Below are positions 27,506-29,541 of a stretch of DNA of 61,361 nucleotides, in pieces. The stretch spans positions 1-61,361 of the forward strand of contig JAFTKJ010000031.1 of NCBI GenBank assembly GCA_017453305.1, given 5' to 3'. Source of the stretch: Clostridia bacterium (GTDB lineage: Bacteria > Bacillota > Clostridia > Oscillospirales > CAG-272). Made by a program: the position numbers and the translations under genes. Within the stretch, counting starts at the first letter, position 1; every line of letters begins with the position of its first letter. The notes under the pieces were generated by a model. The model saw nothing but the letters and a program-made list of their open reading frames with translations, was not told where the DNA came from and did not search any database.

Positions 27506-28230
27506 GAGGTTTGATCTACTCCGGGCGCGTGACAAAGGAGATTTTGCGCGACCCCTTGTCCGCGGTGTTTGGCATTGGCTTTCCCGTGGTGCTCCTGCTT
27601 TTGTTGAGTGCCATTCAAAAGAACGTTCCCGTAGCGATGTTCGTCCTATCGGAGCTGACACCCGGCATTGCTGTGTTTGGGCTCTCCTTCTTATCACTCT
27701 TTTCGGCACAGCTGGTTGCAAAGGATCGTGCCACGTCGGTGCTGTCGCGTCTGTTCACCACACCTATGCAGGCATCGGATTTTATCATCGGCTACGTACT
27801 GCCGCTGTTGCCCATGGCACTGTTGCAGGGGATCATCTGTTATGCGGTGGCGTTGATTTTGGGATTGGAACTCCAAATCGGCATTCTTTGGGCGCTGCTT
27901 TGTCTGTTGCCCGTGGCAGCGATCTATATCGGGATCGGACTGTTGTGCGGAAGTCTGTTGAGCGAAAAGGCGGCAACCTCGCTCTGCGGCGCACTTCTGA
28001 CCAACCTTTCGGCGTGGCTCAGCGGAACGTGGTTCTCCTTGGATCTGGTAGGAGAGGGCTTTCGTGCTGTGGCGGATCTGCTCCCGTTCTCACACGCGGT
28101 GGATCTCGGTCGCGCGGCGCTTGCCTCCGATCCCGGCGGCGTACTCTCACACCTGCCGTGGGTGTGCGGATACGCAACCGTCCTGCTTGCCGCCGCCGTT
28201 TTGGCGTTTTTCCGAAAAATGCGTGTTTGA
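27502..28230 (+). CDS. ABC-2 type exporter permease
   Basis: A 242-residue membrane protein with six predicted segments, the normal size for an ABC-2 permease. It overlaps the ATPase gene by four bases (ATGA) and is the last gene of the LytTR operon. The cargo is unknown; exporters under LytTR/DUF3021 control often confer tolerance to peptides or drugs. A strong terminator follows. Confidence 0.92.
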   Translation: MRGLIYSGRVTKEILRDPLSAVFGIGFPVVLLLLLSAIQKNVPVAMFVLSELTPGIAVFGLSFLSLFSAQLVAKDRATSVLSRLFTTPMQASDFIIGYVLPLLPMALLQGIICYAVALILGLELQIGILWALLCLLPVAAIYIGIGLLCGSLLSEKAATSLCGALLTNLSAWLSGTWFSLDLVGEGFRAVADLLPFSHAVDLGRAALASDPGGVLSHLPWVCGYATVLLAAAVLAFFRKMRV

Positions 28231-28244
28231 TCGGGAAGAAATGA

Positions 28245-28303
28245 AAAAAGAAAACGAGGTAGCTTGTGCAATGTATGCATTTGAGTTACCTCGTTTTCTT
28301 TTT
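28245..28303. terminator. Bidirectional terminator between convergent genes
   Basis: A 17-bp perfect stem (28245-28261 with 28287-28303) is A-rich at the start and T-rich at the end. It separates the rightward ABC permease from the leftward small gene, overlapping the latter's stop codon. Confidence 0.88.
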
Positions 28304-28526
28304 AAAAATCAAGCTCACGCGCTTCTTTTTCTTCTTCTAAAGCTTGTTGCGCTCTATCCTCGCGGAGTTTAAAATGCTTGATCAACATTTCTTTGATTTT
28401 TTCATCCTCAATGCCAAGATCAAGCATAATGTGCGTTGCTTTAAAAACGCCAAATCCCAAGACCCACTCCTCGGTGTCGGGTTTGTTAAGCATCTTGTCG
28501 TAAATTTTCTCCATGATCATGTCCAT
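28302..28526 (-). CDS. Hypothetical small acidic protein
   Basis: A 74-residue protein, MDMIMEKIYDKML at the start and a charged, coiled-coil-like end rich in Glu, Lys and Arg. ATG 28526 is preceded by AAAGGAG; a longer in-frame start at 28565 would run through the terminator hairpin upstream and is rejected. No family is recognised. It lies downstream of a candidate structured RNA with a terminator, so it may be expressed by read-through or from its own unseen promoter. Confidence 0.65.
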   Translation of the reverse strand: MDMIMEKIYDKMLNKPDTEEWVLGFGVFKATHIMLDLGIEDEKIKEMLIKHFKLREDRAQQALEEEKEARELDF

Positions 28527-28549
28527 GCACACTCCTTTCAAAATGGAAA

Positions 28550-28747
28550 ATAAAAAGGGCACCAACCTCGGTTAGCACCCAAAAAATGCAAACTCCGATT
28601 GTTGCTACACAATAAAACAAAATGGTATTTTTCATACTCACCGTTTGGAATTTGCATTTTTATCAAATTCAAAGGTGAGTATAGCCAAAAAAGGGTATCG
28701 TTATCCCTTGTAAAAATACCTTTTATCGTTTATTTTATTGTGTAGCA
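28550..28747 (-). ncRNA. Candidate stand-alone structured RNA or leader with terminator
   Basis: Read leftward, the predicted transcript begins at a 15-bp perfect stem (28733-28747 with 28603-28617). Inside are a 9-bp stem (28712-28720 with 28624-28632), a 9-bp stem GGTGAGTAT/ATACTCACC (28674-28682 with 28634-28642) capped by a bulged 10-bp hairpin (28644-28673), and a small side hairpin (28691-28709). It ends in a hairpin of 11 pairs, including G-U pairs only valid on this strand (28557-28580), followed by TTTTTATTTT. A matched promoter precedes it. No known RNA class is recognised. Confidence 0.65.
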
Positions 28748-28752
28748 AATAT

Positions 28753-28781
28753 ATTGTACCACAATTTTTTCAAAATATCAA
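28753..28781 (-). promoter_or_regulatory. Promoter of the candidate structured RNA
   Basis: On the minus strand TTGATA (28776-28781), a 17-base spacer and TACAAT (28753-28758) predict a start six to seven bases later, which is the first base of the outer stem at 28747. Confidence 0.75.
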
Positions 28782-28854
28782 GCGGTTTGAGTAAAAAGGG
28801 CATTTTTTTTACCGATCATGCAATGATACGCAAGTGTGCTTAAGGGGTTGAACG

Positions 28855-29541
28855 TCAGGGGATCAGGATCTCCTCAAAAAACTTGGGCGTGATCTTGTTG
28901 GGGTGATCAAAGGCATCGTTTGTAAAGCTGTCAAACAAGCCGATGTGGAAGGGAACTGCATATTTTGCTCCCGTTTCCTTGGCAAAGCGTGAGGCGTCTG
29001 CCATGTTCATATTATTGCCGCGACCGTTGCAGGGGAGGAAGATCGCGTAGATTTCCTCGTCGGGAAGCGACGCCAGAACCTGTTTGTTGTAAAGCGTATC
29101 GCCCGTGACGTAGTAGTTCTTTCCCTCGGCGGTGATGATCACGCCGATGGCGTTGGGATCGGAGTGCTCCGCCTTGACCGCGCGGAAGCGCACGTTGCCC
29201 TCGGTCCACTCGGTTCCCGGGTTGAAGTGCACGTGATTGCATTGCGTGTTGGGGTAGGTCTTGCGGATCTCCTGCACGCAACCGTTGGGAGTGAGTGTTA
29301 CCGCTTTACAATCGGGCGTGAGGTAGTATTTCAGCGTTTCGTGGTCGAGGTGATCGAGGTGGTTGTGCGTGATGATCAGCACGTCGGGCTTGATCTGCAA
29401 AAAGGATTCGTCCACGGGCACGCGGCGATAGTTTTGCGGCTCAAAATTTTTGACGTTGTCCGAAAGGTAAGGATCGATGACGATCTTTTTGCCGTCGGTT
29501 TCAAACAACAGCCCCGCTTGTCCAAGCCATGTAATTTTCAT
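28855..29541 (-). CDS. MBL-fold metallo-hydrolase (UlaG/YtkL-like)
   Basis: A 228-residue metallo-beta-lactamase-fold hydrolase with the metal motif HNHLDHLDH near residue 60. Size and N-terminus (MKITWLGQAGLLFETDGKKI) match the UlaG/UPF0173 group, whose characterised member opens L-ascorbate-6-phosphate lactone. It is the last gene of a leftward sugar operon with an SDR dehydrogenase and an enolase-superfamily dehydratase, so a sugar lactonase is the favoured inference. Some relatives are generic phosphodiesterases. Confidence 0.86.
   Translation of the reverse strand: MKITWLGQAGLLFETDGKKIVIDPYLSDNVKNFEPQNYRRVPVDESFLQIKPDVLIITHNHLDHLDHETLKYYLTPDCKAVTLTPNGCVQEIRKTYPNTQCNHVHFNPGTEWTEGNVRFRAVKAEHSDPNAIGVIITAEGKNYYVTGDTLYNKQVLASLPDEEIYAIFLPCNGRGNNMNMADASRFAKETGAKYAVPFHIGLFDSFTNDAFDHPNKITPKFFEEILIP

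Follow-up and report, generated by a model that had tools for sequence, protein, structure and literature searches.

A putative family of cis-acting RNA switches that would control transcription termination in uncultured Clostridia

The window analyzed here is a stretch of 61,361 nucleotides (nt) from Clostridia bacterium (GTDB lineage Bacteria; Bacillota; Clostridia; Oscillospirales; CAG-272; assembly GCA_017453305.1, contig JAFTKJ010000031.1, positions 1 to 61,361). The minus strand of this window carries a structured RNA element between a promoter and a small gene, as shown in Table 1. As an initial annotation had predicted, the TTGATA-N17-TACAAT promoter, the closing stem P1, the stem P2, the side hairpin P3, the long rod and a terminator hairpin with its U-run were all recovered on this strand, followed by an open reading frame (ORF) of 74 residues, P0001, which has its own ribosome binding site (RBS) and starts 25 nt downstream of the end of the element. 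The comparison of this element with its homologues makes it quite probable that it belongs to a new family of cis-acting RNA switches, which would control transcription termination just before a gene by an exchange among a strand X, a strand D and an antiterminator strand.

The 198-nt RNA of the minus strand has a minimum free energy of −66.7 kcal/mol, compared to −36.2 ± 4.0 kcal/mol for shuffled sequences (z = −7.5), and none of 200 shuffles was as good. The plus strand of 28550–28781 likewise folds well (z = −6.8, 0/200 shuffles); therefore, the fold alone cannot fix the strand. The promoter, the terminator, the position of the gene and the G-U pairs settle the minus strand as the predicted sense strand. 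In the window region alone, two promoter-like sites were found where 1.7 were expected, and one terminator-like site where 0.6 was expected, which is near chance. The promoter and terminator rise above chance because they are conserved across the copies of the family.

Table 1. Positions of the element, its predicted parts and the gene that follows it in the window.
Feature	Positions	Strand	Basis
−35 hexamer TTGATA	28776..28781	-	site search; promoter found before 170/183 family copies
−10 hexamer TACAAT, TG before it, 17-nt spacer	28753..28758	-	site search and conservation
Whole RNA element	28552..28748	-	match of R1, the covariance model, at 153.2 bits; the model was built with this copy among its sequences
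P1 closing stem, 5' strand; expected transcript start	28729..28747	-	fold and compensatory changes
P1 closing stem, 3' strand	28603..28621	-	fold and compensatory changes
P2, 5' strand GGUAUUUUU, partner 28624-28632	28712..28720	-	fold
P2, 3' strand AAAAAUACC	28624..28632	-	fold
P3 side hairpin AAGGG...CCCUU	28691..28709	-	fold; unseen in short-form copies
P4 rod and apical hairpin	28633..28683	-	fold
Strand U GAAUUUG, 5' arm of the apical hairpin P5	28664..28670	-	fold and alignment
Putative switch strand X AAAAAUGCAAAUUCC, formed by the apical loop and the 3' arm of P5; alternative partners U or D	28647..28661	-	complementarity and covariation
Putative antiterminator 5' strand CAAUCGGAG, overlapping D	28593..28601	-	complementarity; not above background in the tree-aware test
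Strand D GGAGUUUGCAUUUUU, 15/15 pairing with X in the window copy	28582..28596	-	complementarity
Putative antiterminator 3' strand inside the terminator, CCGAGGUUG in the window copy, consensus CUUCGGUUG in alignment A1	28563..28571	-	alignment
Intrinsic terminator hairpin, then T tail	28557..28580	-	site search
Ribosome binding site AAAGGAG	28532..28538	-	sequence
74-residue orphan gene P0001, presumed controlled gene	28302..28526	-	ORF 28526-28305, stop to 28302

A BLAST search with the element gave matches in 26 of 60 genomes, its own included, and revealed a head-to-tail pair in its own genome (G000:C57; 76% and 70% identity). The first copy set comprised 66 copies, with L040 and L073 dropped. 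An alignment of 59 full-length copies, A1, was the source of the covariance model R1 and leaves out five short forms and two copies interrupted by a mobile element. At E ≤ 1e-3, R1 matched the own genome nine times, with eight of these among the matches listed, and gave matches in 31 of 35 genomes of the same genus, with up to 15 in each (the own genome and an occasional mirror-strand match are counted). With stricter filters and E ≤ 1e-6, which were used for all wider searches, the order gave matches in 33 of 117 genomes, which represent 26 of 74 genera, and the class in 34 of 147 genomes, counting the own genome. In the phylum sample only the own genome matched (1/149), which doubles as a specificity control.

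An exact pattern made of the D strand and the start of the terminator matches named genome contigs in at least 119 stretches, and gave zero matches in viral contigs. The 80 stretches listed among them (L079–L158) are all metagenome-assembled genomes titled Clostridia, Clostridiales, Bacillota, Oscillospiraceae, Ruminococcaceae or Ruminococcus. The R1 search of the pattern loci covered these 80 and found a sense-strand copy in every one (82 sense rows), with weak mirror matches making up 30 of the 112 rows; L187 surfaced separately by a string search. Two forms of the element can be distinguished, a full form (≥188 nt) and a short form, from which P3 and the long rod are absent by eye. The longer DNA matches are about 67–77% identical. 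The RNA in the window is apparently one copy of a large switch family in uncultured Clostridia that has not been described.

Most copies of the family have a similar position relative to a promoter and a gene. Of the 183 copies with enough upstream sequence, 170 are preceded by a sigma-A-like promoter, compared to 87 when this upstream sequence was shuffled; the 183 include a few duplicates present in two collections. The spacer is 17 nt long in 157 of these copies, and in 157 the −10 hexamer ends 4–5 nt before the element. Past the terminator, an RBS with an ATG- or GTG-initiated ORF of at least 50 amino acids is found within 60 nt in 114 of 173 distinct copies; the opposite flank has such a start in 5 of 170 cases, and random points have one in 52 of 910. 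The listing of downstream genes comprises 187 copies, given by the 66 copies of the first set, 80 of the 82 sense rows (without L114 and L139) and 41 short copies, some of them duplicated between collections; the gene-start count was drawn from 182 distinct copies. As the gene is so near the terminator, there is little room for a separate promoter, and transcription should pass through the element. Two elements stand in tandem before one gene at five loci (L002, L039, L088, L101 and L214), and both have promoters where this was looked at (L002, L039 and L214); at L072 there are two elements, each before a paralogous gene.

This arrangement, in which an intrinsic terminator lies shortly before a start codon and a promoter precedes it, is that of an attenuator. 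The initial annotation had called the RNA stand-alone and had offered attenuation as a secondary reading; the gene positions argue for the latter, and the element is most likely a cis-acting transcription attenuator. A leader-peptide attenuator is not indicated: at least 25 of 59 copies lack the apical-loop AUG, with C at column 138, and no other scan for upstream ORFs was made.

Compensatory base changes, whose absence from homologues had been named in the initial annotation as a reason to give up the structure, are present in 20 of 31 predicted pairs in A1. In P1, 9 of 14 predicted pairs are doubly changed, for example columns 5-209, with CG in 37 copies, UA in 15 and GC in 7. The pairing of X with D was examined in the same 59 copies, where 99.1% of the cells are paired and 6 of the 15 pairs are changed on both sides. 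The number of double-change cells reaches 15, compared to 2.6 in shuffled data, and none of 500 shuffles was as high on all five measures; controls with a slid register were paired in 27–58%. Because D lies outside P1, the X-D helix would be a pseudoknot.

A de novo covariation scan was performed on 160 full copies (effective number 123) and 58 short copies (effective number 48), without L097, L104, L129, L012, L058, two mirror rows and identical sequences; its z values ignore phylogeny. In the full copies, the pair 94-181 between the loop and D ranks fourth after three P1 pairs (z = 25.9, 91% paired). It joins the loop to the base after the U-run of D, which lengthens X-D past the stretch first drawn. 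In the short copies, the U-X pairs 39-58 and 45-52 and the X-D pairs 60-125 and 51-133 are among the strongest signals. The U-X pair 37-60 also appears, as do the pairs 37-75 and 34-78, which link U to a near-copy of X further downstream.

Phylogeny was considered in a tree-aware test, which is a rough parsimony count on a FastTree tree of the same alignment and gives the share of changes common to two columns. The P1 pairs 4-156, 12-148 and 9-151 are equalled by 1, 3 and 10 of 11545 column pairs, respectively, and the terminator pair 182-205 has co-changes in 11 of 12. For X-D, 9 of 12 changes at the pair 94-181 are co-changes, a share that 22 of 11545 column pairs attain; at the short-form pair 51-133 the share is 8 of 9, which 13 of 4447 attain. 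The short-form U-X pairs 39-58 (7) and 45-52 (6) are both in the top 25. When the tested columns were left out of the tree building, the co-changes rose, to at least 18 for 94-181 and at least 15 for the antiterminator pair 162-198. These results indicate that covariation, including that of the rough tree-aware test, supports the predicted P1, the predicted terminator and the proposed competition between U and D for X.

The initial annotation had also noted that a CAATCGG segment could pair with CCGA-GG-TTG in the terminator, which corresponds to the antiterminator. The complementarity itself stood: the duplex of the window copy has an energy of −9.7 kcal/mol, 5 of 1000 shuffles are as low, and 96.0% of the cells are paired in the 59 copies, with 14 double-change cells compared to 3.1 in shuffled data and z = 19.9 in the phylogeny-blind scan. 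Independent covariation for it is weak, and it is this conserved complementarity that would argue for the antiterminator. The covariation of columns that share a partner (162 and 189 with 198; 60 and 75 with 37) was considered as proof of exclusive pairing and withdrawn, as it can be clade-level. In short copies, the antiterminator may use a shifted register involving GCAGC, as judged by eye.

The following mechanism can be proposed from these pairings. A strong sigma-A-type promoter would start the RNA, whose 5' end would close P1, and the upstream hairpin would display X in its loop and 3' arm. D would be synthesized after the closure of P1 and could draw X from the hairpin to form the 15-bp X-D pseudoknot, by which the antiterminator strand would be hidden; the terminator would then form, and the gene would be off. 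If X is kept in the U-X hairpin, CAAUCGGAG would remain free and could pair with CUUCGGUUG of the nascent terminator, so that the polymerase would read through and the gene would be on. The U-run at the end of D may serve as a pause site. A signal that biases the choice of X, either by holding X in the hairpin or by blocking D, would switch the gene on. We hold this assignment of the on and off states with modest confidence, and the reverse is possible.

The energies of the competing states were computed piecewise for two sets of full copies (full1 and full2) and the set of short copies, given here in that order in kcal/mol. The values are −18.2, −17.4 and −15.6 for X-D, −17.1, −16.5 and −17.2 for the terminator, and −6.3, −4.8 and −14.2 for the U-X hairpin. 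The antiterminator gave −15.2, −17.2 and −16.3 with wide windows, and −11.2 (full) and −11.3 (short) with narrower ones. In the full copies, X-D and the terminator are clearly favored energetically, and the resting state is therefore probably off.

Several results weigh against this mechanism. At the antiterminator, the pair 162-198 has co-changes in just 2 of 5 in the tree-aware test, a share that 2607 of 11545 column pairs attain; its covariation may reflect one or a few clade-level events. Two of the five measures for the antiterminator are no higher than in shuffled data (307/500 and 170/500), own pairing is just slightly better than foreign pairing (0.63, 0.57), and the window copy has CCGAGGUUG as its 3' strand, which deviates from the consensus. 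The terminator pair 189-198 and the short-form pairs 37-60, 37-75 and 60-125 are unremarkable in the tree-aware test. X and D were located in 182 of the 187 copies (39 of 41 short). Ranking own X-D pairing against foreign gives 0.49 in the full copies, which is uninformative, and 0.72 in the short ones; the short copy L203 has a weak X-D of −7.4 kcal/mol. The states of the short form are nearly balanced by the coarse wide-window energies, and this form has no obvious aptamer. The gene presumed to be controlled in the window is an orphan. Finally, a pair that was not predicted, 151-162, matches the predicted ones in strength in the phylogeny-blind scan. It joins the UUG of the P1 3' strand to the CAA of CAAUCGG in A1 terms, with 97% complementarity and z = 21.7 (short form 102-113: 96%, z = 6.4). 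In the tree-aware test it has one co-change in 5 (short form two in 2), which corresponds to few independent changes, and the complementarity may form a further alternative helix.

The genes downstream of the copies are diverse and encode, among others, leucine-rich-repeat surface proteins, lipoprotein-like proteins and small orphan proteins. A Pfam scan of 142 of the 169 listed downstream proteins gave matches to 68 Pfam families, which ruled out a single downstream gene family. The largest group is LRR_5 (BspA-type), with 22 proteins; others are zinc ribbon (6), HTH_3 (4), AMP-binding (3), MazE/AbrB-type (3), cpYpsA (2) and YspA-type SLOG (2) matches. About 42 of 171 downstream proteins have a lipoprotein-like N-terminus by a crude pattern. 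By eye, 13 distinct copies stand before a gene for a small Cys-rich protein (DITGVELTPGEP..CCDECD), and about 11 copies before genes for proteins with CGH, GHR or GSR N-termini; going by weak Pfam scores, the latter may be SLOG-like. P0001 has no relative in 59 other genomes, in a peptide-pattern scan or in Pfam at 0.001; its match to DUF577 (E = 0.005, 17.2 of 32.1 bits) was rejected. Because the downstream genes are functionally unrelated, the biasing signal would probably be global rather than pathway-specific. The broader proposal is that one global signal, a new signaling metabolite or a new trans factor, would act by pseudoknot strand exchange to set how strongly surface proteins, lipoproteins and orphan accessory genes are expressed, within an undescribed family that spans many families of Clostridia with up to about 15 copies per genome. 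This proposal is tentative, with a chance that we place a little short of even.

Some neighboring features were observed at these genes. In the window at about 28245–28305, a long hairpin between A and T runs lies between P0001 and a convergent gene ending at 28230, and it resembles a shared bidirectional terminator. Short-form copies at L202 (2132), L217 (2188) and L231 (a 38-amino-acid ORF) precede very small proteins with similar N-termini by eye, which are possibly precursors of modified peptides. At L070, L215 and L221, short-form copies lie 135–190 nt before a gene for a Cro-type helix-turn-helix (HTH) protein (IKKLR...QAVSRWEN), of which L215 and L221 encode the same N-terminus.

What acts on the switch can be read in several ways. 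It is a real possibility, without being the probable case, that the element is a true riboswitch, in which P1, the AAUA junction and the X-D pseudoknot would form a small-molecule pocket and binding would stabilize the pseudoknot and turn the genes off, or the reverse. The pseudoknot layout covaries, and many copies stand before unrelated surface and accessory genes, as is the case for second-messenger riboswitches. The conservation of the AAUA junction is suggestive: ATA directly follows P1 in 148 of the 160 full copies and in 57 of the 58 short ones, compared to backgrounds of 0.29 and 0.25. However, there is no large conserved unpaired core, the short form has neither P3 nor the long rod, and the downstream genes show no theme that would indicate a ligand.

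A protein or small RNA acting in trans might instead bind the A-rich loop or strand D and decide the choice of X. The many invariant positions in the loop (mostly GAUAAAA or GGUAAAA) and in D would fit such binding, and the many unlinked copies are consistent with a regulon; however, no linked regulator was identified, and this reading is rather unlikely. LoaP was considered as the factor and rejected, as none of the 35 genus genomes has a match above the NF033641 cut-off and the matches below it resemble ordinary NusG, as in control genomes.

We regard a factor-free switch, in which polymerase speed, nucleoside triphosphate level or temperature would set the race between X-D and the antiterminator, as improbable. 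It could make use of the strand-exchange design with the U-run, a possible pause, that ends D, and in the short copies U-X and X-D are comparable in energy (−14.2 and −15.6 kcal/mol). In the full copies, however, U-X is far weaker than X-D, and temperature alone would hardly balance the two.

That the RNA acts in trans as a stand-alone small RNA and that the following gene is incidental is very doubtful. Although it has its own promoter and terminator, and 59 of 173 copies miss the strict gene-start criterion, the gene position (114/173 against 5/170 and 52/910) speaks against this reading, under which the conserved complement of the antiterminator would also be purposeless. A mobile repeat or a palindrome like a miniature inverted-repeat transposable element, which the initial annotation had named as a possible refutation, is suggested by the many dispersed copies and long inverted repeats but can be dismissed with near certainty, since DNA matches as divergent as given above keep their pairing by compensatory changes, the orientation to the gene is fixed, the random gene orientation and recent near-identical copies of such repeats are not seen, and the one exact pattern found nothing in viral contigs.

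A separate observation concerns insertions into the family. At L012 (about 1649), L058 (about 2156), L187 (about 7897, minus strand) and L208 (about 2176), one and the same foreign sequence interrupts the terminator, and the break in the terminator loop always falls after CTTC. In L058 and L286 the foreign sequence leads into ORFs that presumably resemble TnpV, an HTH regulator and a tyrosine recombinase. A mobile element seems to target the terminator of the family for insertion; the other end of this element was not located within the 17 kb examined.

The family was compared with known RNA classes in Rfam 15 (4227 families), using the gathering threshold of each family as the criterion. In agreement with the initial annotation, which had recognized no known class, the scan of the whole window gave one tRNA elsewhere and nothing at the element. 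A permissive scan of 28230–28870 gave 30 matches, none at the gathering score, and these low-threshold matches were rejected. Scans of 20 copy-bearing loci gave tRNAs only, and scans of 17 short-form loci at E ≤ 0.05 gave tRNA, Gut-1 and sub-threshold matches, none overlapping the element; T-box (RF00230) had no match in the same scans. Gut-1 RNA (RF01706) matches L199 at 1692–1869 and L200 at 1506–1684 in the own genome, about 0.7–1.2 kb from short-form copies; one of four Gut-1 matches near short-form copies is above the gathering score.

The family looks like a transcription-attenuating switch, and it could be assigned to no named family among those compared. In the fluoride crcB and preQ1 riboswitches, a pseudoknot between a loop and a downstream strand competes with expression-platform pairing near the terminator. 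The present family is alike in this competition; however, its pseudoknot strand overlaps the proposed antiterminator and spans P1, it precedes unrelated genes, and it has no Rfam match. Cyclic-di-GMP riboswitches of Clostridia occur in several copies per genome, some before surface-protein genes, and act by terminator control. The family resembles them in these three respects but differs in architecture and has no match to them in the Rfam scans. T-box leaders likewise have a terminator, an antiterminator and competing upstream stems, whereas the listed downstream genes of the family are not aminoacylation genes and the Rfam scans gave no match. Processive antitermination by LoaP at dfn uses a hairpin leader near the promoter, to which the element is similar in position; the difference is that no LoaP exceeds the cut-off in the 35 genus genomes. 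No recognized description of the switch family was found in the literature searched. A survey of human-microbiome RNAs reports 3161 computational cis-RNA candidates in gut bacteria (PMC8040213); the family shares this setting, and the passages of the survey that were examined do not describe it; it may be present there as an unnamed entry.

The strand-exchange design, which is found in both full and short forms, makes the mechanism testable with short in vitro transcripts. A cis-regulatory RNA that occurs in 34 of the 147 sampled genomes of the class without being listed in Rfam would extend the orphan regulatory classes by one, and the family would open a route to the control of surface proteins and lipoproteins in uncultured gut Clostridia.
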